Shown: piece after piece, positions 10,269 to 33,977 of the stretch | Layout of the letters: the number at the start of each line of letters is the position of its first letter | How positions within the stretch are numbered: the stretch's first letter is position 1 | Made by a program: the position numbers and the translations under genes | Virus record (IMG/VR): IMGVR_UViG_3300025889_000274 | Location: 1 to 40,814 of that record | From: a virus | Reading direction: 5' to 3' (one strand) | Length of the DNA stretch: 40,814 nt | The notes under the pieces: model-generated | What the model saw: the letters and a program-made list of their open reading frames with translations, nothing else | Databases searched by the model: none | Told to the model about the DNA's origin: nothing

Positions 10269-10478
10269 ATGACTGAAGATAAAGCTAGAGCTAAAGTTAA
10301 ACCAAAAACTGTACTAACAGAAGTCGAAAAGAAAATTGCCCCTTCCGATCTTGTTTCTGTGGAAAATTATAGTAAAGATCGTGTATGTGTATCTACCGGT
10401 ATACTTATGCCTGGTGATAAAGGTGAATGTACGTTGGCCGAAGCAAATTCGTACAATAGAAAATTAAGGAGACTATAG
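10269..10478 (+). CDS. Small head-module hypothetical protein, 69 aa
   Basis: Basic N-terminus (DKARAKVKPKTVLTEVEKK) followed by a short beta-rich part (RVCVSTGILMPGDKGECTLAEA). Located directly after the capsid gene, where decoration or head-completion proteins often lie, but no family was recognised. AAGGAG upstream of the ATG is good. Its stop overlaps the GTG of the next gene. Confidence 0.65.
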   Translation: MTEDKARAKVKPKTVLTEVEKKIAPSDLVSVENYSKDRVCVSTGILMPGDKGECTLAEANSYNRKLRRL

Positions 10479-10831
10479 TGATATACCCGGATGAGGTAAT
10501 TAGAAGCAGGATTCATTACCAGGAACATACGGATACTATTACGCATGTTACAGATCAACCAACTGAAGATCTGATACTTAATCGTAATGCGGAATTACGT
10601 AAAAATCCGGGAGCTATTCGTGACCTTGGAAAAGGTACCCAAACATGGGGTCGACAATTATGTTCTATACCATTTATCATGTATGAAAAAGCGTTACGTG
10701 ATGGGTATCAGCTAAATGCTACAGACAAACAATTTCGATCAGATGAATTATACAGATATTTACGTAGTGAAGAAGGGCGTAAATGTTTAATCAATGATGA
10801 ATTACTTATTACTAAGCGGAGGACTAAATAA
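10478..10831 (+). CDS. Head-module hypothetical protein, 117 aa
   Basis: The only good start is GTG at 10478, one base into the previous stop, with AAGGAG at the right distance. It is a mixed charged protein without known motifs (QTWGRQLCSIPFIMYEKALR in the middle). It overlaps the next gene by one base. A conserved structural or assembly role is inferred only from position between capsid and adaptor. Confidence 0.7.
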   Translation: MIYPDEVIRSRIHYQEHTDTITHVTDQPTEDLILNRNAELRKNPGAIRDLGKGTQTWGRQLCSIPFIMYEKALRDGYQLNATDKQFRSDELYRYLRSEEGRKCLINDELLITKRRTK

Positions 10832-11082
10832 TGGCTGGTAAAATGGAATCAGGGTATACAGTTACTTCAGCAGACCGTAGATTGGCTCAAGCATATTGTG
10901 AAGGTATGGCTCATCGCATTCAAGGGACTGCGCTAGCTTTTCCTATTACTGATAACCCTTATTCAGACCCTGACGGTGAATTAGAAACTGCTTGGGATGC
11001 TGGGTGGAACTCAGCGAATGGTGACGCTGGTGGAGTTTTAGACCCTAAAAATTGTGCGTTAAGTGGGAACGTTTCAGCATGA
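10831..11082 (+). CDS. RMF/CrpP-like small protein, 83 aa
   Basis: The core AYCEGMAHRIQG, then NPYSDPDGELETAWDAGWNSA, matches the pattern of the ribosome-modulation-factor/CrpP-like small fold (A-Y-x-x-G, then N-P-Y, then W-x-x-G-W-x-x-A) that many phages carry. In bacteria RMF binds ribosomes; the role of phage copies is unknown, and its position among head genes hints at a virion or assembly role instead. The 3' end overlaps the next small gene by four bases (ATGA). Confidence 0.7.
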   Translation: MAGKMESGYTVTSADRRLAQAYCEGMAHRIQGTALAFPITDNPYSDPDGELETAWDAGWNSANGDAGGVLDPKNCALSGNVSA

Positions 11083-11228
11083 AGACTTTACTTATGATGA
11101 AGACACGAAGTCTTATCTCTCCTATGGTACAAAAGTTTAGCTCTCCAGTTAAACCCACTACTATTACACAAAGACGAGGCATCCGTTCAACCGGTGGATA
11201 TCGCATCTATAAGGTGTTAAACCCGTAG
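11079..11228 (+). CDS. Very small basic protein, 49 aa
   Basis: An open frame too short for usual cut-offs. It starts at an ATGA overlap with the previous gene and ends 7 bp before the adaptor gene. The 49 residues are basic (TQRRGIRSTGGYRIYKVLNP at the C-terminus) without acidic residues. Exact fit between two genes, coupling overlap and absence of another use for these 150 bases support it as real. Function unknown. Confidence 0.6.
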   Translation: MKTLLMMKTRSLISPMVQKFSSPVKPTTITQRRGIRSTGGYRIYKVLNP

Positions 11229-11235
11229 GTGATAT

Positions 11236-11853
11236 ATGAATTATACTGAAATTAAAAACGCAGCTTTAGCTTATGCTGATAAAGCTACCCACACGGAAAC
11301 ATCAGATAGTATGGATGATTTTCTTAGGGTGGTAGAGGCTCGTGTTAACCGGCATTTAAAGACTAATGATATGTCAAAACAGGCAACGTTAACGTCTTTA
11401 GATGGAAAATATTATTATGGCTTGCCTGATGATTTTAATGGTTTAAGAGGTGATCCACAAGTCCCTGGTGCTAATAACACTATCCAAACTTTTAGATTTA
11501 TGACACCAGAACAGATGAACAATATTAATCATCTTTCTAATGTTAGTGAACACTATTATACGATTATAGCAGATCAATTTCGCATCTTTCCAGATTTAGA
11601 CGCTGAAGTAATCACTATAACGTATTACCAAAGGATTGTAGCCTTAGATGGTACAAATACCTCTAATTGGCTGAGTACGGATAATCCTGATGTTTATATC
11701 TTTGGTTGTCTTGTTGAAATTGCTTCATTCAACAAAGACGCTGTTGCTAGAGAAATATGGGACGCACGATTTAAAGAAGCACTTAATGAAGTATCAATCC
11801 ATGATCAAATGATTAGATGGTCTAGTAACACAATGCAAACCAGACCTGGTTAA
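11236..11853 (+). CDS. Head-tail adaptor protein (SU10/epsilon15 type)
   Basis: A 205-aa protein with the order and residues of podovirus adaptors: a helical start (NYTEIKNAALAYADKATHTE, then FLRVVEARVNRHLKT), a beta-rich centre (YYYGLPDDFNGLRG, YYTIIADQFRIFPDL) and a helical end (EIWDARFKEALNEV). Adaptors ring the portal exit and receive the nozzle. No adaptor-like second gene was seen. The position four small genes after the capsid is usual in this group. Confidence 0.82.
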   Translation: MNYTEIKNAALAYADKATHTETSDSMDDFLRVVEARVNRHLKTNDMSKQATLTSLDGKYYYGLPDDFNGLRGDPQVPGANNTIQTFRFMTPEQMNNINHLSNVSEHYYTIIADQFRIFPDLDAEVITITYYQRIVALDGTNTSNWLSTDNPDVYIFGCLVEIASFNKDAVAREIWDARFKEALNEVSIHDQMIRWSSNTMQTRPG

Positions 11854-13306: not shown

Positions 13307-14977
13307 ATGGGTCACTATCGAGACTTAAACGCACTCGCTCTCACGCCGGAGCTACTTGCTGAAAACGCAACGGGACACAAGTGCGTTAAGCCTTCGTCAA
13401 ATTCTGGTGTCAGAATTAATTGGGCTAATCCAATTACTCGAAAGCTGGTCGGTGCGTGGTTGCTCAATGATAGAGGAGGCGCTACAGCGCGTGATTTGTT
13501 AGGCAAAAACCACGGCGCAATTTCTGGTGCGACATGGACGCCGTATGGTCTTGAGTTCGCAGAATCCGACACGAATGACGTGGGTTTAGGTACGTCGAGC
13601 GAATGGGAAGGGCATCACTCTGGCGCTATCTTTGCGCGTATTAAACCCGACGATTTCAGTTCTTCTGGCGCGGTCTTTTGTCGTGACCCTGCACATTCGG
13701 GCCGTGGGCAATCGTTTTATATAAACAGCTCGGGCAATGTAGCGTGGTCTGCGCGGTTTGCATCAACAACATACACGGCATCAACTACCGCAGCACTCAC
13801 GGCGGGAAGGTGGTCAAACGTCGCCGTCAGTTGCGCAGGACAATCTGCCGATTATCATTTTCTTGTTAATGGTAAGATTGAAACTGCTACGTTAAATACG
13901 TCTGTAGACGGTTGGTGGACAGATGAACCAGATTCGGTTAGCGCGTATGAAATCGGGCACCACAAACGTGGCGACTCAAGCCACTATTTCGACGGTGTAA
14001 TCGGCTTCGTGTATTTATTTGGCGCAGATACGGATAATCTAGGAAATCTAACCGACGCAGAACTGCTGTCATTAGACAAAGACCCGTATCAATTGTTAAT
14101 GATTGAGCCGACTTTCTGGATGCCGCAAGCGGCCGCAGGTGGTGGTACCAGTATCAATGCTACTTCAGCTAGTAGAACAAACACTGCTAATAATGCAACC
14201 GTACAAGCAGATGTTGATATTAATATTTCTGCTACATCAGCTAGTAGAACAAACACTGCTAATAATGCAACCGTACAAGCAGATGTTGATATTAATATTT
14301 CTGCCACATCAGTTAGTAGAACGAATACCGCTAATAACGCTGTTGTAAGTTCCGGTACAGACACTAATATAGCGGCTACTTCTGCAAGCAGAACAAATAC
14401 TGCTAACAATGCAACTGTACAGGCTGACGTTGATATTAATATTACGGCGACTTCTATTAGTCGTACTAATACAGCAAATAACGCGGTTGTAAGTTTAGGC
14501 ACACCAACAAACATTTCTGCCACCTCTGTTAGTAGAACTAATACAGCAAATAATGCTACTGTTGATGCCCAAATTGACATTAATATAACAGCTACTAATG
14601 CTACCAGAACTATAACACCACTTAATGCATCCGTACAAGCAGATATAGATATTAATATAACAGCAACTAGTGTATCAAGAACTAATGCTGCAAACAATGC
14701 TGTAGTTTTTCTTGGCAACAATATTATAGCACTAAATGTTGCTAGAACTAATACGGCTTACAATGCGACGGTAGACGCTCAAGTAGATGTAAATGTTGCG
14801 GCTACTTATGTGAGTAGAGGTAATACAGCATTAGCTGCAGCAATATCTTATTATGTACCAGGTTATACGATTATTTGCCCAGATAGTGATTCGTGGTCAG
14901 CAGTAACTAAAGATTCATCGTCCTGGACAGAGATTAGCGTTGATTCAAACGAAGGTAATGTAACTGATAATTGTTAA
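13307..14977 (+). CDS. Tail fibre-like protein: LamG-type domain plus 24-residue repeats
   Basis: A 556-aa chimeric protein. Residues about 45-250 look like a concanavalin/LamG jelly-roll (VGAWLLNDRGGATARDLLG, SGAIFARIKPDDFSSSGAVF, YHFLVNGKIETATLN, YFDGVIGFVYLFGADTDN). Residues about 283-510 are about nine tandem 24-residue repeats of the type ATSASRTNTANNATVQADVD, predicted beta-rich. The C-terminus (SDSWSAVTKDSSSWTEIS) is a short unique end. The DNA changes from GC-richer to AT-rich at about 14.13 kb, at a Gly-rich joint. Likely a receptor-binding or host-surface adhesion protein. Confidence 0.75.
   Translation: MGHYRDLNALALTPELLAENATGHKCVKPSSNSGVRINWANPITRKLVGAWLLNDRGGATARDLLGKNHGAISGATWTPYGLEFAESDTNDVGLGTSSEWEGHHSGAIFARIKPDDFSSSGAVFCRDPAHSGRGQSFYINSSGNVAWSARFASTTYTASTTAALTAGRWSNVAVSCAGQSADYHFLVNGKIETATLNTSVDGWWTDEPDSVSAYEIGHHKRGDSSHYFDGVIGFVYLFGADTDNLGNLTDAELLSLDKDPYQLLMIEPTFWMPQAAAGGGTSINATSASRTNTANNATVQADVDINISATSASRTNTANNATVQADVDINISATSVSRTNTANNAVVSSGTDTNIAATSASRTNTANNATVQADVDINITATSISRTNTANNAVVSLGTPTNISATSVSRTNTANNATVDAQIDINITATNATRTITPLNASVQADIDINITATSVSRTNAANNAVVFLGNNIIALNVARTNTAYNATVDAQVDVNVAATYVSRGNTALAAAISYYVPGYTIICPDSDSWSAVTKDSSSWTEISVDSNEGNVTDNC
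14159..14840 (+). repeat. 72-bp coding repeats in the fibre gene
   Basis: About nine in-frame units of 72 bp. The first two (14159-14230 and 14231-14302) differ by one base, showing a recent duplication, while later units are diverged at DNA level but keep the S-R-T-N-T-A-N-N core. Unit number is likely to vary between related phages. Confidence 0.85.
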
Positions 14978-17448: not shown

Positions 17449-18458
17449 CTGTAGAAACAGCTACTCATTTAGACGATTTAGACATTACATTACCTCTTGC
17501 AGGCGATAATATATCTGAAGGTGATAATCATTTACGGCTTATAAAATCAGTTCTAAAGACTGTATTCCCGGGTAGTGGTGGTTCAGGATTTAGTACCCCA
17601 ATTACAGCATTAGAAGCGGATATTAATTTACTTGCTGGTCTAGCTGCTGGAGGGTTAACTAACACTGAGTTATCCTATATCAATACATTGACATCTAATG
17701 CACAGACACAGCTAGATGCCAAACAGCCACTTGATGCAGACCTTACAGCTATAGCTGCATTAGCAACAGCAGCATATGGCCGTTCTCTTTTGGAAACTGC
17801 TTCAGAAGCTGCGTTTAAAGCTTTAGTTAATTTAGAAATCGGAACTGATGTACAGGCATATGATGCAGACTTGTCGGCTATAGCTGCACTAGCTACAAAC
17901 GCTTACGGCAGATCATTGCTAACAGTTGCTTCAGAAGCTGCGTTTAAAGCTTTAGTCAATTTAGAGATTGGTACAGATGTACAAGCGTATGATGCAGATC
18001 TAGCTGCTATTGCCGCATTAACTACACAAACATTCGGAAGGTCTTTATTAACACAAGCAACTGCTTCAGCAGCAAGATCCACATTAGGGATAGATGGCAC
18101 AAGTGGAAACATAGCCAGTGGTGATATTGCAAATGACGCTATCGACGCTGCACATATTAGTTTTACAAATACGACAACTGGTACTTTGACTGTTCCTTTC
18201 AATGGCTCTGTTACTGTTCCAGAAGGTTTTTATGTAGTCCTTGCACCAGACAGTGCTGGCAGTAACTGGAGTTCTATAGATTTAGTGGTTACTTCTCACC
18301 AAAGTGGCACACCTACCTTTGTAGTAGGGAATTTTGGAACGGCAAGTAGTTCTACTAAAGGATTTTCAGGAATATACTCGGACGGGTCTAACGTTACAAT
18401 TACTGATACTTCTAGTGCTGGCCCTAAAACAATTTATTATAGAAGGTTAAATACTTAA
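17445..18458 (+). CDS. Tail fibre/collar-type protein with repeats
   Basis: A 337-aa protein. Residues 1-95 carry a start common in phage tail fibres (ISEGDNHLRLIKSVLKTVFP). Residues about 97-205 hold three 43-residue repeats built on DADLSAIAALATNAYGRSLL, then SEAAFKALVNLEIGTDVQAY, a motif typical of fibre shafts. The C-terminal 120 residues (FNGSVTVPEGFYVVLAPDSA onward) are beta-rich and probably the tip. Codon use is AT-rich again, unlike the preceding lysis-like genes. It likely forms the host-contact fibres. Confidence 0.75.
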   Translation: MTVETATHLDDLDITLPLAGDNISEGDNHLRLIKSVLKTVFPGSGGSGFSTPITALEADINLLAGLAAGGLTNTELSYINTLTSNAQTQLDAKQPLDADLTAIAALATAAYGRSLLETASEAAFKALVNLEIGTDVQAYDADLSAIAALATNAYGRSLLTVASEAAFKALVNLEIGTDVQAYDADLAAIAALTTQTFGRSLLTQATASAARSTLGIDGTSGNIASGDIANDAIDAAHISFTNTTTGTLTVPFNGSVTVPEGFYVVLAPDSAGSNWSSIDLVVTSHQSGTPTFVVGNFGTASSSTKGFSGIYSDGSNVTITDTSSAGPKTIYYRRLNT

Positions 18459-18967
18459 TGCAGTTTATCCATATTCCAAAAACAGCTGGTAAATCGGTTC
18501 ATGCGGTGTTCCCTAGGACTCCTCCTTTTGAGAGACATCACCAACCGATGTCTTACTATAAGGATGAGACAGAGTTCTATACGACCATAAGAAACCCGTA
18601 CGATAGATTGGTAAGCTTATTTTGTTATATAAACAGAGACCAACCTAACTATAATGAGATACATAACCCAGAATATTTTTATTGGTGGTTTACTGTGGGG
18701 AAAGATCAGGAACCCAAGATGGCTAATCCTAATGTGTTTAATACTATGTCATGGTATTTAGATGTCCCTGAGAAACCTGTGAAGATATTAAGATTCGAGA
18801 CAGTCGGACAAGATTTTAAAGAACTGTTTGGGCAGGATTTACCTCACGTAAATGAAAATGAACATCCACCTTATCAGGGGTATTATGATAAGAAAATGAC
18901 AGAGTTAGTAAGAGATTATTACTCTGAGGACTTTATACGCTTTAACTATAGCGAGGAATTGGTATGA
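18458..18967 (+). CDS. Sulfotransferase-like protein, 169 aa
   Basis: Shows the two PAPS-binding signatures of the Sulfotransfer_2-type family: FIHIPKTAGKS near the N-terminus (5'-phosphosulphate loop, residues 3-13) and TTIRNPYDRLVSLF (3'-phosphate loop, residues 42-55), with a C-terminal YYSEDFIRFNYS typical of the family end. Short compared with cellular enzymes (about 250), so a minimal version. It overlaps its neighbours by one and four bases within the tail operon. It could sulfate a host surface glycan after infection or a virion component; a PAPS source must come from the host. Confidence 0.8.
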   Translation: MQFIHIPKTAGKSVHAVFPRTPPFERHHQPMSYYKDETEFYTTIRNPYDRLVSLFCYINRDQPNYNEIHNPEYFYWWFTVGKDQEPKMANPNVFNTMSWYLDVPEKPVKILRFETVGQDFKELFGQDLPHVNENEHPPYQGYYDKKMTELVRDYYSEDFIRFNYSEELV

Positions 18968-25875: not shown

Positions 25876-25900
25876 GGGGCTCTTACGAGCCCCATTTTTT
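25876..25900 (+). terminator. Rho-independent terminator of the late operon
   Basis: GGGGCTC-TTAC-GAGCCCC (25876-25893) is followed by ATTTTTT. It ends plus-strand late transcription before the convergent ligase gene. The minus-strand reading lacks a U-run, so it works mainly in one direction. Confidence 0.92.
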
Positions 25901-26933
25901 ATATATCATCTCGCCATCTAATAGCAACACAGTGAAAAGGTATACCGTCATTAGTTAGTTCAGCATATTCACATGTGACCAACTTTCCGATATAGTCCTC
26001 TTTATTATCCAGCACATGCCTCTTTTCCATATGATTACCTGGTGCCGAAGTTTTAAAAGCATTACCATTTCTGGCCTCCAGAATCAAAATACCCCAACCT
26101 TCCTTAGAAGGTTCTATGTCTATACATTTAAACTCATCATCTTCTCTAAGCTTGATTTTAATTAAGTGAGGACTACGTTTACCAATACTGTATTTACTAG
26201 AACCTAATCTTATAATAGCCCCTTCATATCCTTGTTCTCTATACATTCTGCACAACTTATGAGGATCTGTTCCAGTTCTAAGTTTGTGTGTATTAACTAT
26301 TTTGATTTTATCTGTCACTGTAACATTGTCTTGTATAAACTTAAATCGATCTTCAAAAGACATATTCTCATTAACAACGTCGTATATATGGTATTCTAAG
26401 CGAAGTGTTTTAATTTGTCTACGTTTTGCCCAAGAAGCAATAGTCTGTAATGGTGCACCGTGGTAATACAGTTCACCATCAAATATTACCCCTTCAGGTA
26501 CATGTAAATCGTCAATAATTTCTGGTATGGTATCTATTATTTTACCTTGTCTTGAATATGCGCCTTGTCTACTTATCATACATCTATGACCGTCAAGCTT
26601 TGGTTGAGCATACCACTTATCAAATAATAAACCTTTAACACGTTTAAGTGGATGAGCTAACATCGGTGCTGGCAATCCTAACTGATTCGTAACAAACTCA
26701 CCTAACTCTTCACGAGATTCCTTAAACCCAGCATCTCGTTTCTTCCTCGCTCGCGCTTCGACGCGGAGTTTTATTTGCTCCTCTACGGATCTACCGGCCT
26801 TCCCACAAGGTACGTCTTCCGTAAAATGGCATCCGTTAGCATAAATATGGATAGTATTACCTTCACTATAGATTTTCCAAATATTTATACTGTGAACTCC
26901 ATGGCCGTATAGTGTAAGTTCATTTTTCCGCAT
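25899..26933 (-). CDS. ATP-dependent DNA ligase
   Basis: A 344-aa ligase. The adenylated lysine is in AQPKLDGHR (Lys112), followed by FDGELYY (Glu154), GYEGAIIR and HLIKIK, the ordered nucleotidyltransferase motifs. C-terminal residues about 270-344 form the OB-fold. Residues 1-65 precede the usual catalytic core and start like a WGR-type DNA-binding segment (INIWKIYSEGNTIHIYANGC). It seals nicks during phage replication and repair. Last gene of the minus-strand replication unit; GAGG upstream of the ATG. Confidence 0.92.
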   Translation of the reverse strand: MRKNELTLYGHGVHSINIWKIYSEGNTIHIYANGCHFTEDVPCGKAGRSVEEQIKLRVEARARKKRDAGFKESREELGEFVTNQLGLPAPMLAHPLKRVKGLLFDKWYAQPKLDGHRCMISRQGAYSRQGKIIDTIPEIIDDLHVPEGVIFDGELYYHGAPLQTIASWAKRRQIKTLRLEYHIYDVVNENMSFEDRFKFIQDNVTVTDKIKIVNTHKLRTGTDPHKLCRMYREQGYEGAIIRLGSSKYSIGKRSPHLIKIKLREDDEFKCIDIEPSKEGWGILILEARNGNAFKTSAPGNHMEKRHVLDNKEDYIGKLVTCEYAELTNDGIPFHCVAIRWRDDI

Positions 26934-26936
26934 GAT

Positions 26937-27407
26937 TTATCCTCTATATTGTTCGTATACAACGGTGCCGAAGTGCTTGGCACCAGGGTATGGATCTTCA
27001 TAAACAACACGCTTACATCGAGTGTTGGCTATCATCTTACTACAATGAGTACATGGTTCTGCAGTACAATAGATTGTATGAATCTTATTTACATCTGATA
27101 CTTGCATAAGAAGATTCATTTCCGCATGCACTGCGGCACATTGATCTAATCTAGTACCACTAAGTGCCGACGCACCAGAACAAGCATACGGGTAACGTAC
27201 CTGTATTGGTTGATTTGGACCAGATTGAAACGTATGTTCTTCATTACAATGCTTTTCACCACATGGTACACCGTTATATCCTGTACCTATAACTAATCCG
27301 TTCTTATCTAGTGCCAAGGCGCCGACGGCACGACGTAAACAAGTAGTCCTCATGGCTATATCGCTAACGATACGCATGTATAATTCATCTTTGGATATTC
27401 TACTCAT
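26937..27407 (-). CDS. dCMP deaminase
   Basis: A 156-aa zinc deaminase. The catalytic HAE motif is VHAEMNLL (His94, Glu96) and the zinc cysteines are EPCTHC (Cys119, Cys122), as in dCMP deaminases. A second metal site (Cys49, Cys54, HTF) is also suggested. It converts dCMP to dUMP for dTMP synthesis and drains unmodified dCMP. It lies just downstream of the structured element at 27460-27550, outside the modification cassette proper. GGAG before the ATG is good. No thymidylate synthase of the ThyA type is present, so the dUMP would be handled by the host. Confidence 0.92.
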   Translation of the reverse strand: MSRISKDELYMRIVSDIAMRTTCLRRAVGALALDKNGLVIGTGYNGVPCGEKHCNEEHTFQSGPNQPIQVRYPYACSGASALSGTRLDQCAAVHAEMNLLMQVSDVNKIHTIYCTAEPCTHCSKMIANTRCKRVVYEDPYPGAKHFGTVVYEQYRG

Positions 27408-27555: not shown

Positions 27556-28320
27556 TCAGGATTTTAGCCACTTACCAAAATCTGATTTAAAGGTAAGACT
27601 TAACAAATCGTGTACATCTGTGATAGGTGGATATTCTACTTCTAAAAAACCATCACCTTCGCATGCGGCAACCTCATTCATATATGGCCAATAGTTTTCA
27701 TATACGTGTAAACTATCAGTACTAAAAATGAATTGGCCTTTCGGCACGCCTAATTCATGCGACATCATCTCATGTAACCACCAAAAACATGGCCAATCGA
27801 TACTAGAACCTATGGCTAAATCGCTTGACCGCATATCAGCGTGCATGATTAACTCACCTTGTACTATACGAAAAGTAATCCCTTTAGTACATACTACATC
27901 CTTATTATCTGCAAACATATGTTCATGACCCAACATCGGTATATAAGCACGACGGCTGTCTGGGTCTTCTATCAGGGTTTTTACCACTCTATCAAAATCT
28001 GTAAGACCATCGGCGTCCTTTCTGATAAACCAATAATACCCATAGTTAGAAAATATTCTACCATCAGGTTGTACTATGGTTTTCCATATACTTGCCTCAT
28101 CACAGATAGAGTTATCGTATGGGTCTCCTTTTAGATACCACATAAATTCTTTCTTGATATAGGCAAGATTATCCCTTGGTCTAAAAGTAAAACTATGAAA
28201 TGGTTGGTTTACAGTAATGGAATAAAAAGGGATTTCTTTAATCAACAAATCCCTTGGTTTAGATATTTCGCCCCATGATGCTACATCACTAAAAGCTTGA
28301 ATCACTGAATTAAATTCCAT
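27556..28320 (-). CDS. dCMP hydroxymethylase-type thymidylate-synthase homologue
   Basis: A 254-aa member of the thymidylate synthase superfamily. It has the folate/nucleotide frame motifs EFMWYLKGD (Glu58), the catalytic cysteine in VVCTKG (Cys144), RSSD (Arg164, Asp167) and the LHVYENYW end. Where ThyA has Asn177, this protein has Asp175 (SSID), the change that in T4 gp42 and related enzymes selects cytosine nucleotides. So it most likely makes 5-hydroxymethyl-dCMP from dCMP with methylene-THF rather than dTMP. The kinase gene is immediately upstream, four bases away. GGAG supports the start. Confidence 0.85.
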   Translation of the reverse strand: MEFNSVIQAFSDVASWGEISKPRDLLIKEIPFYSITVNQPFHSFTFRPRDNLAYIKKEFMWYLKGDPYDNSICDEASIWKTIVQPDGRIFSNYGYYWFIRKDADGLTDFDRVVKTLIEDPDSRRAYIPMLGHEHMFADNKDVVCTKGITFRIVQGELIMHADMRSSDLAIGSSIDWPCFWWLHEMMSHELGVPKGQFIFSTDSLHVYENYWPYMNEVAACEGDGFLEVEYPPITDVHDLLSLTFKSDFGKWLKS

Positions 28321-28323
28321 AAT

Positions 28324-28815
28324 CTACTCCTGTACCCGCATATTTATCTCGTTTAACAAGTCATCCATAGGCATATCTGTATAATCATAGTGGATATGGT
28401 CTATAGACGTCATCACAGAATGATAATTAGCTTTGATAATGTCTCTATTTTCAGTTATATGTTTGATATGCTCATCTGTATCATATTCTTTAATTTCATG
28501 AACTTCATTAGGAACTGTAGTCCATATAAATATACAGGAACTTTCTAAGTATGAAAGATCTCTTAAAAGCATAGCACGATGTAATTCATTCATATCAAGT
28601 TCATAACACAATCTAGATATACATGTAACTCTATCAAATATAGCTAACGAATGTTTGGCAATCAAACATTGATACCGCGACATTTCTTCTGCAATATCAT
28701 TAGACTTAGGCTTACCACCTATAACATGGATACCTAAATTATAAAATCTACCTAATTGTTTTGCTAAAGTAGATTTACCGCATCCGTCAAATCCTTCTAT
28801 TATTATGCTTTTCAT
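28324..28815 (-). CDS. P-loop deoxynucleotide kinase
   Basis: A 163-aa kinase with an N-terminal P-loop GFDGCGKST (residues 8-16), a typical DR-type signature in IFDRVTCISR (about residue 60) and a small all-in-one fold of the thymidylate/deoxynucleoside monophosphate kinase type. Between the hydroxymethylase and the pyrophosphatase, it is well placed to phosphorylate 5-hydroxymethyl-dCMP to the diphosphate, the job of T4 gene 1. Substrate is inferred from neighbours. It overlaps the upstream gene by four bases. Confidence 0.85.
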   Translation of the reverse strand: MKSIIIEGFDGCGKSTLAKQLGRFYNLGIHVIGGKPKSNDIAEEMSRYQCLIAKHSLAIFDRVTCISRLCYELDMNELHRAMLLRDLSYLESSCIFIWTTVPNEVHEIKEYDTDEHIKHITENRDIIKANYHSVMTSIDHIHYDYTDMPMDDLLNEINMRVQE

Positions 28816-29237
28816 GAGTCATAGTCCATATTCTGAGTTTCTATGGCGCTTAAGATATTTGCGATACGAGTTTCCGGGGATACCCATCCATCTGGTTTAA
28901 CTGCATCTGCAGCTTCACCATTTCCTCGTTTTGTATTGACACCCAATCGCTTACTCATGTTAGCATCATGGACAGAAGAAAATAGTTTTTCATACACACC
29001 ATGGTCTATCCCCATTTTATATAAAACACCATGAGCAAAATACATGAGGTCAATGACGGCATCAACTGTACCTATAAAATCATCATTTTTATACGCCTCT
29101 AAAAACTCATTACATTCCTCAATAAGGCTTGCATAAGATATGTCAGCCTCCGCTTGTGATAATGTAGATATTGGTCTTTTACCTATACCCAATATTTCAC
29201 GATTAAATTCAACCACCTGAAGGTATTGTTTAGACAT
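28812..29237 (-). CDS. MazG-like all-alpha NTP pyrophosphatase
   Basis: 141 aa from the ATG at 29237, chosen because AAGGAG lies six bases upstream; the longer 29264 frame overlaps the carbamoyltransferase end. It has the metal-binding helices of the all-alpha NTP-PPase superfamily: SLIEECNEFLEAYKN followed by DFIGTVDAVIDLMYFAHG (E-E-x-x-E then D-x-x-x-D). In a hydroxymethylcytosine pathway an enzyme of this superfamily removes dCTP (T4 gp56), and this is the favoured role here. House-cleaning of other nucleotides or of ppGpp is the alternative. Confidence 0.82.
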   Translation of the reverse strand: MSKQYLQVVEFNREILGIGKRPISTLSQAEADISYASLIEECNEFLEAYKNDDFIGTVDAVIDLMYFAHGVLYKMGIDHGVYEKLFSSVHDANMSKRLGVNTKRGNGEAADAVKPDGWVSPETRIANILSAIETQNMDYDS

Positions 29238-29247
29238 GTGTTTCTCC

Positions 29248-30834
29248 TTATTTAATTTCTTCATGATAATTAGTTAATATGAGATTATGAATTATTTTCC
29301 AATTATCGTGTTTTTGTTGATAATCTATACACTCTATTAAATCTTTATTGCTAAAGATAATAGGTACACCATGTATATTAAAACTGGTATTAATAAGTAT
29401 ACCAAACTCTTTAAGGGCAGGTCCCATGATAGATAACGTTTCTTTGTCATCGTCTGGTACTACCTGAGGCCTACCAGTGTAACCATCTCGTGTAGGTAAT
29501 CCGTGTGCCGCACCTCTATAATCATGTTTAATTTGGAAATATTCCTGAGCTAAAACCATATAGTGATTGCTTTTAACAACACGATCCATGTCATCAAACA
29601 ACGTATATGCTACTTCTTCTGATACTACTGGAGCCATCGGCATTACAGTATCACGTCCGTTACATTTATTGATATAGTCGACATTTGCAGTCACAGGTAA
29701 AGCTATGGTAGATGTACGACACAATGCCCTAGCGCCGAATTCCATATTGCCCCAGACTATGTTTACTATTTTAGCTTCTTTCAATAATTCCAATAACCTA
29801 TTAGCCATATCTGATTTGTTATTAAACCACTCAGTACGATCTCTATTAAAGGTTGGTTTTATATCTCTAAAACCCCAACATAAATTTTTAGGCATTTGCC
29901 AATCTGGATTATCTCTCTTATATAATCCTAATGGAGCACCTTGGTCACCACATAAAGGCATAACAGATAACATTCCAGGAATAGCCTCTAATACTTTGTA
30001 GTTTGCTTTAACATTCATAAACACACCACCCACCAATATAACGTTATCTATATTATATTTTCTGATTATGGCAACCAATATACGTTCAAGGGCTGTCTGT
30101 ACCACATGAGCTACCAAGTGTTTCATCCTTTCACATGGTGCCAAAATTTTATCCCACATTAGTTGTGTTTCAACCAGGGCTTCAATCTTGTATAGTGGAT
30201 CAGTATCATTAAATAACCGTTTATTATTTATGTGATTCGTGAATTTTTGCAATATATCTAAAACTATAGGTCCAAGATATTGCTTATCTACATTAGAGCA
30301 TGAGTTTTCATAACCTAATAACTTATACTCATCTTCATTCATTTTCATACCAAGATTGGCTACTGCATACTGATACATTAAACCAAGAGATGCATCATAT
30401 CCGTATACTCGATTAACTAACTCATCTTGTGGATTATAAATGGATATAGTCTCACCAAAATTACCGAATCCATCAGCAACTATAGTCCATGATGGAGGCA
30501 TTTCATCTCCGACAAAAGCTTTAGCACTCATCATATGACAATCATGGTGCGTGAAATTTTTATCCACGGTTACTATATTTTTATGTGTAGGCAATAGTTT
30601 ACGATTAAAGTGCTTTAACTTCATATTATCAAGATTACCAAAAGGATCCCAATGAGATATGTAAATACTATCATATTCTTCGATACCTATTTGACGTATA
30701 GCATTAATTGGAAATGCACTATCAGATTTAATTCGTGTTAATCTCTCCTCTTCATAACCATTAATAATACGGCCGTCCACAATAGCGACGGCCGATGAAT
30801 TATGTCCCAATGACAGTAATAAATCTGTACTCAT
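29248..30834 (-). CDS. NodU/TobZ/CmcH-type carbamoyltransferase
   Basis: A full-length 528-aa protein. The N-terminal Kae1-like domain opens with SLGHNSSAVAIVDG, has the metal-binding HHDCH (residues 96-100) and VADGFGNFGE (Asp121), and GGVFMNVKAN (269-278). The C-terminal YrdC-like domain carries MEFGARALCRTST and, near the end, INTSFNIHGVPI. Such enzymes transfer a carbamoyl group from carbamoyl phosphate, via carbamoyl-AMP, to a hydroxyl. Beside a cytosine hydroxymethylase, the obvious acceptor is the 5-hydroxymethyl group on DNA or nucleotide. Confidence 0.9.
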   Translation of the reverse strand: MSTDLLLSLGHNSSAVAIVDGRIINGYEEERLTRIKSDSAFPINAIRQIGIEEYDSIYISHWDPFGNLDNMKLKHFNRKLLPTHKNIVTVDKNFTHHDCHMMSAKAFVGDEMPPSWTIVADGFGNFGETISIYNPQDELVNRVYGYDASLGLMYQYAVANLGMKMNEDEYKLLGYENSCSNVDKQYLGPIVLDILQKFTNHINNKRLFNDTDPLYKIEALVETQLMWDKILAPCERMKHLVAHVVQTALERILVAIIRKYNIDNVILVGGVFMNVKANYKVLEAIPGMLSVMPLCGDQGAPLGLYKRDNPDWQMPKNLCWGFRDIKPTFNRDRTEWFNNKSDMANRLLELLKEAKIVNIVWGNMEFGARALCRTSTIALPVTANVDYINKCNGRDTVMPMAPVVSEEVAYTLFDDMDRVVKSNHYMVLAQEYFQIKHDYRGAAHGLPTRDGYTGRPQVVPDDDKETLSIMGPALKEFGILINTSFNIHGVPIIFSNKDLIECIDYQQKHDNWKIIHNLILTNYHEEIK

Positions 30835-30837
30835 GGA

Positions 30838-31662
30838 TTAATCCCAACTTTCCAGAATATTGTCTACCTCTTCTGATGATACTTTAGAAGGTTTCTCAGC
30901 CTCAGGTTCAATTACTTCTACCGATGGTAATGCTTGCTTATTGCCTCCACTAGGTAATGCTGGTGTAGTAGATGAGAAGTTATCCCATTCTTTTTCTTCA
31001 GCAATTTTTAGTGAGGTTTTAACCATGTCTTTATTTAGTATGCCCAATAATTCGAACGTTAATTTAGGATAATCAGCATCATCATCAAAACCTAAACGAG
31101 ATATTACTACCGAAGGAGTTGTGATCCCGGCCTTCTTAAGATCCGTACTATAATTATTTAATGGCTTAAGACTTGATACGGTAACATTAAGTAACCAGTA
31201 TGGAGGCCGTTCAGACTCCTTCATATCTTTAGCTTTGACAATATATAAGCGCTTACTATCTCGGCACGCCTTCGATTTCTTACCGCCTATACTAATGGCT
31301 GAACCAAATTTGTTATTAGGGCATGTAGCACATGTTTGACTTACAGGATTACTAACCCAAGAATCTGGAGATATACCATCAGATGAGCTACAGTTTGGTG
31401 GATCTGAACTATTTGAGTCATACACTCCTTCATAATATGTTTTGGCTGTACCATGTGTAGGCATCATACCTACTATAACACAGTCAAGATTATCTTTCAC
31501 AACTTCAACTTCTTCACCTTCAGACTTGAAGCGGAACTTGCCACCTTTAAGTGATATTCTAGGTACTGACATACCACCACTCATCATATCATCAGTTTTA
31601 GGTGCCGATGTGTTTTCCATCATATCTTTTAAATAATCTGGGATTTGTATATCTTTGGACAT
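30838..31662 (-). CDS. Probable ssDNA-binding/replication protein, 274 aa
   Basis: Beta-rich middle (VVKDNLDCVIVGMMPTHGTA, PPYWLLNVTVSSLKPLNNYS), a Cys-rich probable zinc knuckle (CATCPNNKF then KACRDSKR) and an acidic tail (VSSEEVDNILESWD). An OB-like core with an acidic C-terminus is typical of phage SSBs, which use the tail to bind partner proteins. Located between the replication and modification genes. AGGAG upstream. Direct family recognition is lacking, so the function is inferred. Confidence 0.6.
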   Translation of the reverse strand: MSKDIQIPDYLKDMMENTSAPKTDDMMSGGMSVPRISLKGGKFRFKSEGEEVEVVKDNLDCVIVGMMPTHGTAKTYYEGVYDSNSSDPPNCSSSDGISPDSWVSNPVSQTCATCPNNKFGSAISIGGKKSKACRDSKRLYIVKAKDMKESERPPYWLLNVTVSSLKPLNNYSTDLKKAGITTPSVVISRLGFDDDADYPKLTFELLGILNKDMVKTSLKIAEEKEWDNFSSTTPALPSGGNKQALPSVEVIEPEAEKPSKVSSEEVDNILESWD

Positions 31663-31665
31663 TTT

Positions 31666-32079
31666 TTACTCTCCTTTAGAGGACTTGGTTGGTTTACGTA
31701 CTTGAATAACATCTTCTCGTACGTAATCTATTCCCATTTCAGCGGCTGATATACCGCTATCCATGAGTTCTTTAACAGCCAATTTAGATATATGGCTGGT
31801 AAATATCTGCGTGTTGCCAGTCTTTAGTACCCACTCATCAACTATTTCTCTGGCACCTGGTGCTATTCGAGCATAATCTTTTTCAGTACGGAAAGCTGTA
31901 CCGGCCGCGGTCTTGAATGAGTCTACACCTGTCTCATTAGATATCTCTAATATTTGGGCTTCAAGATCCGCTAATTCCGCTTTACAACCATCTTCAAATG
32001 ACTTGAAATCACTTCGTTTTTCATTTAGAGTATCGCGTATACTAATATACTCATTAACTAAATCAACAATTTTAGACAT
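31666..32079 (-). CDS. Gp157-like hypothetical protein, 137 aa
   Basis: An N-terminal coiled coil (ISIRDTLNEKRSDFKSFEDG, then ELADLEAQILEISNET) followed by a small beta-rich end with the pattern SFKTAAGTAFRTEKDYARIA. That resembles the phage Gp157-type layout, often linked to recombination or SSB genes. It opens the cassette behind its own promoter, with AAGGAG before the ATG. The function is not known. Confidence 0.6.
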   Translation of the reverse strand: MSKIVDLVNEYISIRDTLNEKRSDFKSFEDGCKAELADLEAQILEISNETGVDSFKTAAGTAFRTEKDYARIAPGAREIVDEWVLKTGNTQIFTSHISKLAVKELMDSGISAAEMGIDYVREDVIQVRKPTKSSKGE

Positions 32080-32305: not shown

Positions 32306-33712
32306 CTACAAATTAGTATACATATCCAATATATCTTCATTAGTCAACGTGCCGGAGTCCAACTTACGATATAATTCTTTCTCTATTTTACAAGATATGA
32401 GTTTAATTATATGTTGATTTTCAGATTGTCCGGCACGACGTACCCGCCCTATACTTTGGACATACTTCTCAACACCCATCACAGGTGTCCAATAAAGTAT
32501 ATAGCTAGCTGAAGTTAATGTAACACCGTGGCTTGCTGTGGATACTTGAGCTATTAGTACCTCTGTATCAGCATGTTGAAAATCTTTAAATATCTTAGCT
32601 CTTTGGCTCACCGGCACTTTGCCAGATATGGACGATACATTGTACTTCTTATCTTTTAAGTATCTTTCTATTAGAGTTATCTGTGCTACAAACTGGCAAA
32701 ACACAATTAACTTATTACCTGATTCTTGAATAACAGAAATTAACTCATTAAGTTTAGAATTACATGGTAAACTATGGATATTACCTTCTTCATCTATAGC
32801 TGTACCACCAGCTATTTGTAGTAGCTTACTAAACTTAACACCTGCATTAACCGCCGTTATAGTGCCTGTTTTTAATTCGTGTAACTGCTCTTTTACCATA
32901 TTATTATATGCTTCTTCCGTTTCCTTAGGCATATTAACTATTCTGGTTTCGAATGTTATAGGGGGCAAATCAATACATTCTTCTGTCTTGAATCTTATCG
33001 CTGGTTGAAGGGCATTATGAACCACAGTTTCCCACCCTTCTTTATGTTCGTAATTATACATATCGATTTGATACATTACCATGTTTCTAAATTTAGTCAT
33101 ATAAGGTGTAGGTAATTTTGATGGGTTAACAGCTAGACCTAATCCATAAGCATCCATCGCGCCTGTAGTGATAGGTGTACCTGTCATACCCCAAACAGAC
33201 TTAACTGCTTTAGATATACGCCTCATTGCTCTTGACCTTGAACTATTGTGCTTGAATGCAGTTAACTCATCGATAACTATAATATCGAAATTAGTTTGTA
33301 TTATCTCTTCCCAATATGTGCGTACACAATCATGGTTAGTAATAACTATATTCGCATTTGATTTTAAAGCTTGTAATCTGCTTTCTTTAGGACCATGCAT
33401 TATTGTTGGCCGTAAGTGCGGTGCAATATTGCGAACCTCTTCAAGCCATACGGTTTCAAGGATAGATAGAGGTGCTATAACAAGCATACGCTTTACTTTA
33501 TTAGTATATCTTAATATATCATATGCCCATATGGCGGATGCTGTCTTACCACTACCTAATCCGTTAAATACATAGGCTCTCTTATTTCTAAGGAGAAATA
33601 AGATCGTAGTTAACTGATGTTCGAAAGGTTTAAAATTATAAAATCCGTAACCTATTTTATCGAACGGCGGAACTGTGATTTGAGATGTAGGCTTTAATTT
33701 GACTAATGACAT
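32306..33712 (-). CDS. SNF2-type DNA helicase/translocase
   Basis: 468 aa from ATG 33712; the longer 33769 frame overlaps the VRR-NUC gene and has a worse ribosome-binding site. Superfamily 2 motifs: Walker A GLGSGKT (51-57), DELT of motif II (148-151, VIDELTAFKH), GMTGTPI, and near the end QSIGRVRRAGQ (motif VI). N-terminal FEHQLTTILFLL matches SNF2-family starts. It would move on or remodel DNA in replication or recombination. The 56-bp overlap of the alternative start with the nuclease supports a functional pair. Confidence 0.87.
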   Translation of the reverse strand: MSLVKLKPTSQITVPPFDKIGYGFYNFKPFEHQLTTILFLLRNKRAYVFNGLGSGKTASAIWAYDILRYTNKVKRMLVIAPLSILETVWLEEVRNIAPHLRPTIMHGPKESRLQALKSNANIVITNHDCVRTYWEEIIQTNFDIIVIDELTAFKHNSSRSRAMRRISKAVKSVWGMTGTPITTGAMDAYGLGLAVNPSKLPTPYMTKFRNMVMYQIDMYNYEHKEGWETVVHNALQPAIRFKTEECIDLPPITFETRIVNMPKETEEAYNNMVKEQLHELKTGTITAVNAGVKFSKLLQIAGGTAIDEEGNIHSLPCNSKLNELISVIQESGNKLIVFCQFVAQITLIERYLKDKKYNVSSISGKVPVSQRAKIFKDFQHADTEVLIAQVSTASHGVTLTSASYILYWTPVMGVEKYVQSIGRVRRAGQSENQHIIKLISCKIEKELYRKLDSGTLTNEDILDMYTNL

Positions 33713-33977
33713 TTTCGTCCTTACCAAACATAAATGAAAAGAATCCACCGGCTTGTTGAACGTCGGCACCGAACTTTTTTTGTAAAGCTGTAGGTCTACC
33801 TTTTTCAGTCTTAACTTCGATAGCTATATACAGACCATGAATGCAGAATATCAAGTCAGATACACCGCGACTAGAATATTGACTAGCCGGATATTTTATA
33901 TATACACAATGTTGGCCGTATATATCTTTTAAACGTGATCTAGCCCATGATTGAATAACGTTTTCACTATTACTCAT
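33657..33977 (-). CDS. VRR-NUC nuclease
   Basis: A 106-aa minimal VRR-NUC domain: YSSRGVSDLIF followed by YIAIEVKTEKGRPT gives the D, E and K of the PD-(D/E)XK core, with a typical QKKFGADVQQAGGF end. Stand-alone phage VRR-NUC proteins resolve branched DNA. Here it directly precedes and overlaps an SNF2-type helicase, as in other phages. AAAGGA upstream supports the ATG. Confidence 0.9.
   Translation of the reverse strand: MSNSENVIQSWARSRLKDIYGQHCVYIKYPASQYSSRGVSDLIFCIHGLYIAIEVKTEKGRPTALQKKFGADVQQAGGFFSFMFGKDENVISQIKAYISNHSSAVR

Follow-up and report, generated by a model that had tools for sequence, protein, structure and literature searches.

The gene at positions 27556–28320 (minus strand) of the 40,814-nucleotide stretch of viral DNA analysed here (IMG/VR record IMGVR_UViG_3300025889_000274, referred to as the window) very probably encodes a folate-dependent dCMP 5-hydroxymethylase that feeds the synthesis of 5-carbamoyloxymethylcytosine (5cmdC). 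The open reading frame starts with ATG, and its 254-residue product, a protein of the thymidylate synthase (TS) superfamily referred to below as the TS homologue, is predicted to be a dCMP 5-hydroxymethylase from its match to PF00303 (Pfam, E 2.5e-19), its solved relatives, its residues, and its fold.

Active-Site Residues of the TS Homologue

Read codon by codon, Arg164 (27829–27831) is followed by Ser165, Ser166, and Asp167, and then by Gly171, Ser172, Ser173, Ile174, and Asp175. In two MAFFT alignments, the segment of E. coli ThyA that extends from Arg166 to Asn177 corresponds, with no gaps, to Arg164–Asp175 of the TS homologue. The specificity switch proposed in a preliminary description of this DNA is borne out, as both alignments place Asp175 (codon GAT, 27796–27798; Asp179 in T4 gp42), and no other residue, at the site of ThyA Asn177, where Asp is assigned to the selection of cytosine (PMC6400193, PMC8670742). 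The same alignments agree with two further claims made there, namely that Pro175-Phe176 of ThyA is changed to Ser173-Ile174 and that the catalytic nucleophile, Cys144 (codon TGT, 27889–27891; ThyA Cys146), is kept. Since Asp is invariant in this column of the 20-sequence alignment A4 and is also present in 26 of 26 window-type or carbamoyltransferase-linked rows of a larger residue table, its occurrence in the TS homologue is not due to chance. Asn177 in that table either accompanies Leu143 and His147, as in the ThyA type, or belongs to SPO1 gp29, a dUMP hydroxymethylase.

The forecast that automated annotation would label this protein a thymidylate synthase is correct for Pfam and PHROGs but fails for NCBIfam, whose thymidylate synthase equivalog models all score far below their cut-offs. 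Apart from the names given by Pfam and PHROGs, which would speak for an ordinary TS with an odd active site, the evidence runs against such an enzyme, not only through these scores but also through Asp175, Asp141, Thr145, and Ser91, which stand in place of Asn177, Leu143, His147, and Pro92 of ThyA, and its probability is practically negligible.

Base Preference and Hydroxymethylation

According to PMC8670742, which cites Hardy and Nalivaika, Graves, and others, replacement of Asn177 by Asp shifts the preference from dUMP to dCMP, and TS homologues on cytosine-modified phage contigs mostly have Asp177 (Yang et al. 2021, PMC8670742). The Asp at this site determines base preference (dCMP over dUMP), not which product is made. 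AXL1 gp63, which stood in for Xp12 (MT664984) in the residue comparison and comes from a phage closely related to Xp12, a 5-methylcytosine phage (PMC9206674), also has Asp at position 177, and Asp175 by itself is therefore no proof of hydroxymethylation. The earlier statement that this residue marks a cytosine hydroxymethylase and not a TS stands overall, on further residues and on the genomic context, but not in the form in which Asp175 alone decides the matter.

The signature of hydroxymethylases derived from the ternary complex of T4 gp42, in which an Asp precedes the Cys by three residues and Ser-x-Tyr is also present (PMC6400193), is found in the TS homologue as Asp141-Val-Val-Cys144 and Ser91-Asn-Tyr93. 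Asp141 (27898–27900) is equivalent to Asp145 of T4 gp42, the water-activating residue of hydroxymethylases, and to Leu143 of ThyA, and the remaining part of the signature, Ser91-Asn92-Tyr93 (28042–28050), corresponds to Ser94 and Tyr96 of gp42 (PMC6400193 for both roles). As far as sequence can tell, Asp141 and Ser91-x-Tyr93 indicate that the enzyme would hydroxymethylate its substrate. Although only 21% identical to T4 gp42, the TS homologue matches it at all 15 active-site positions compared (E58, W80, S92, Y94, R126, R127, D143, C146, T147, R166, S167, D169, D177, H207, and Y209 in ThyA numbering), among which ThyA itself departs at P92, L143, H147, and N177.

The Asp shared with AXL1 gp63 would be compatible with a dCMP C5-methyltransferase giving 5-methyl-dCMP, as in phage Xp12, but gp63, whose methylating role is itself deduced from the relationship with Xp12, has Asn in the alignment at the position of T4 Asp145, three residues before the Cys, where the TS homologue keeps Asp. 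Moreover, a DHFR gene is located two genes away from AXL1 gp63 and none is present in the window, and 5-methylcytosine would offer no hydroxyl to the adjoining carbamoyltransferase, with 5mdCTP being no substrate (PMC8670742). A methyltransferase is thus highly unlikely.

Enzymes that hydroxylate the ring directly, the 5-hydroxy-dCMP synthases of RB69-type phages with arabinosyl-hydroxycytosine, also belong to the TS superfamily (PMC13390438), and the flavin-dependent TS-fold structure 9iqc matches the predicted fold with a Z score of 21.8. However, RB69 ORF048, the one representative compared, which on homology and neighbours is likely such a synthase, departs at 5 of the 15 active-site positions (Ala80, Thr92, Glu143, Asn169, and Phe209), including the loss of the folate-binding Asp169, whereas the TS homologue keeps Trp, Ser, Asp (Asp141), Asp169 (Asp167 in its own numbering), and Tyr209. 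Sugar transferase genes are absent from the cassette, and the assignment of the TS homologue to this class is exceedingly improbable.

Predicted Structure

The AlphaFold2 model of the TS homologue, for which the window protein and 19 relatives served as the input, has a mean pLDDT of 93.5 and a pTM of 0.91. Its best fold match is MilA (Z 25.7, rmsd 2.4, 246 residues), followed by thymidylate synthases and T4 gp42 (Z 21.8, rmsd 2.9, 217 residues), with MilA and T4 gp42 being the best solved relatives. Used as a check, as suggested in the preliminary description, the modelled fold confirms membership in the TS superfamily and does not separate substrates.

Selection of the Sugar

The preference of MilA for CMP rests on Lys133 and Ala176 and is reversed by the substitutions A176S/K133R, the double mutant being without CMP activity (PMC5175136). 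At the equivalent sites (ThyA 126 and 167), the TS homologue has Arg123 and Ser165, as do T4 gp42 and ThyA, and this Arg and Ser pair is the one that, by the rule given in PMC5175136, selects deoxyribose. Because the residues responsible for CMP selection in MilA, sought in comparison with the CMP hydroxymethylases MilA and BcmA, are missing, hydroxymethyl-CMP, considered earlier as a possible product, is disfavoured, with Arg123 and Ser165 being of the dCMP type and not of the MilA type.

It is very unlikely that the TS homologue is a MilA-like CMP hydroxymethylase making hydroxymethyl-CMP for modified RNA or for a ribonucleotide product, even though MilA (PDB 5jnh, 5b6d) is its best match in both sequence and fold, with an Asp for cytosine and an Asp before the Cys, and the published carbamoyltransferase also takes 5hmCTP and, weakly, RNA (PMC8670742). 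The residues at the two ribose sites, the loss of CMP activity in the double mutant of MilA, and the surrounding genes, which serve DNA replication and dNTP metabolism, all argue against it; MilA, in contrast, serves an antibiotic pathway. Since no solved structure is closer than MilA in sequence or fold, the TS homologue may have weak CMP activity. It is most improbable that in vivo the enzyme takes CMP besides dCMP and the phage also makes carbamoylated cytosine in RNA as a result.

The Nine-Gene Cassette

The predicted dCMP hydroxymethylase is encoded within a block of nine genes, all on the minus strand. The block starts with an SNF2-type DNA helicase (32306–33769; phrog_62, E 1.6e-90, and synteny) and a Gam/Gp157-like protein (31666–32079; weak match to PF22709 and synteny), followed by a conserved unknown protein that always adjoins the carbamoyltransferase (30838–31662; phrog_27714 and synteny). 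The TobZ/NodU-type carbamoyltransferase itself (29248–30834; 528 residues; PF16861, E 1.2e-23, and PF02543, E 1e-16) is predicted to act on 5-hydroxymethylcytosine. Next come a PRA-PH/MazG-like nucleotide pyrophosphohydrolase (28812–29264; PF01503, E 2e-9, and phrog_671) and a P-loop nucleotide kinase with the Walker A motif GFDGCGKST (28324–28815; phrog_761, thymidylate kinase, E 6e-10). The family matches suggest a candidate dCTPase for the former, a role that we take to be analogous to that of T4 gp56, and a candidate hydroxymethyl-dCMP kinase for the latter, presumably by analogy with T4 gp1. After the TS homologue, the block ends with a dCMP deaminase that has a conserved HAE and PCxxC zinc motif (26937–27407; PF00383, E 8.5e-20, and phrog_174, E 3e-34) and an ATP-dependent DNA ligase (25899–26933; phrog_114, E 1.6e-62, and synteny).

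The carbamoyltransferase is 35–40% identical to the TS-linked proteins of Xp15, Acinetobacter, and Bacteroides phages, and its model has full-length matches to GdmN (Z 34.8), TobZ (Z 31.2), and VtdB, with scores across the three from 34.8 to 29.7. Residues W408, G421, and R423 (TobZ numbering) of such carbamoyltransferases are named in PMC8670742, where one of these enzymes was found to make 5-carbamoyloxymethylcytosine both with 5hmdC in DNA and with 5hmdCTP as the substrate, and less in RNA. Carbamoyltransferase, PRA-PH, and dCMP deaminase domains were found there to co-occur with TS homologues only in modified contigs, and in the window, too, a carbamoyltransferase lies near a TS homologue with Asp177, together with a PRA-PH protein and a dCMP deaminase. 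DHFR and ThyX were sought across the whole virus record and not found, which fits an enzyme that regenerates tetrahydrofolate.

The 274-residue protein encoded at 30838–31662 occurs wherever the cassette is complete. Conserved cysteines (C91, C111, C114, and C133) are found in it along with a CPxNxFGSA motif, and its C terminus is acidic and ends in D-I-L-E-x-W; it is possibly a single-strand DNA-binding protein. Elsewhere in the window, among the structural genes, 18458–18967 (plus strand) encodes a product weakly matching phrog_3347, a galactose-3-O-sulfotransferase family (E 5e-8).

Relatives and Gene Order

A scan of IMG/VR with the single sequence of the TS homologue gave no relatives, and those reported here were obtained with the family alignment as the query. 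The complete nine-gene order is present in 12 other loci. These are Xp15, three phages of Acinetobacter, and eight contigs from IMG/VR (L029, which is Xp15 again, is left out). The order is kept even in distant phages, with TS homologues as little as about 30% identical. In the tree, the TS homologue belongs to a clade of 20 (SH-aLRT 99), 17 of which have the carbamoyltransferase, while the other three (L024, L025, and L027) end within 0.9 kb upstream; all clade relatives with enough upstream DNA thus carry this gene. The tree was made by a quick method, and the placement of T4, SPO1, and one Bacteroides paralogue, all on long branches, is unsure, but the clade of the window is independent of them.

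Bacteroides phages have a related carbamoyltransferase beside dCMP-hydroxymethylase genes of their own, in a different order. In phage BF503P2 (L009), two dCMP-hydroxymethylase paralogues (10456–11262 and 13336–14016) are found beside the carbamoyltransferase; the first has Leu for Glu58 and Tyr for Trp80, and from these replacements it may be inactive. Five other loci (L014, L017, L020, L021, and L026) have a TS homologue with Asp177 and, except for L021 (Glu), Asp143, with no carbamoyltransferase within about 6 kb and no glycosyltransferase among the neighbours scanned. The DNA of these phages may contain plain 5hmC or another hypermodification. A large separate group (L030–L089) comprises short phage TS homologues of about 215 residues that have Asp177, Asp143, Met83, and Asn147 and lack a neighbouring carbamoyltransferase; several of its contigs (L047, L055–L057) also encode a true ThyA.

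Proposed Pathway and Comparison with Known Systems

In the proposed pathway, Cys144 would attack C6 of dCMP, with Asp175 holding and protonating the cytosine ring, and methylene-tetrahydrofolate would donate a one-carbon unit to C5. A water molecule that Asp141 activates and Ser91 and Tyr93 hold in place would then add to the exocyclic methylene, yielding 5-hydroxymethyl-dCMP and tetrahydrofolate. 5-Hydroxymethyl-dCMP would be phosphorylated to the triphosphate by the candidate kinase and host enzymes, and unmodified dCTP would be removed by the PRA-PH protein. The carbamoyltransferase would carbamoylate the 5-hydroxymethyl group, either on the nucleotide or in DNA. We infer that the genome of this phage carries 5cmdC as the outcome, most likely for protection from host nucleases. 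The sequence, the residues, the predicted fold, and the conserved gene order are observations made here, and the activity of the TS homologue in this phage would follow from them and from what is published for homologous systems, namely the association with Asn177Asp, the pairing of TS homologues with carbamoyltransferases, and the carbamoyltransferase reaction.

The window resembles the MetaGPA contigs (PMC8670742) in having Asp177, the carbamoyltransferase, PRA-PH, and dCMP deaminase on one contig, although it belongs to another phage and presents the complete nine-gene order, and the carbamoyltransferase assayed in that study is that of another contig. Xp15 and the Acinetobacter phages MD-2021a, HHU4, and Effie share the whole block, its order, and the active-site residues, but their TS homologues are 29–35% identical to that of the window and have GLGTD where it has GSSID. 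In T4, glucosyltransferases act after gp42, whereas the window has a carbamoyltransferase instead.

Implications

Since both the pairing and the Asn177Asp switch were described by Yang et al. 2021 (PMC8670742), the window is a further member of a published system. The label "thymidylate synthase" of the gene at 27556–28320 is corrected, and the 5-carbamoyloxymethylcytosine pathway gains an example with a complete gene order. Before the product of such an enzyme is named, the residue at the Asn177 site should be read along with the Asp before the Cys and with the ribose residues.
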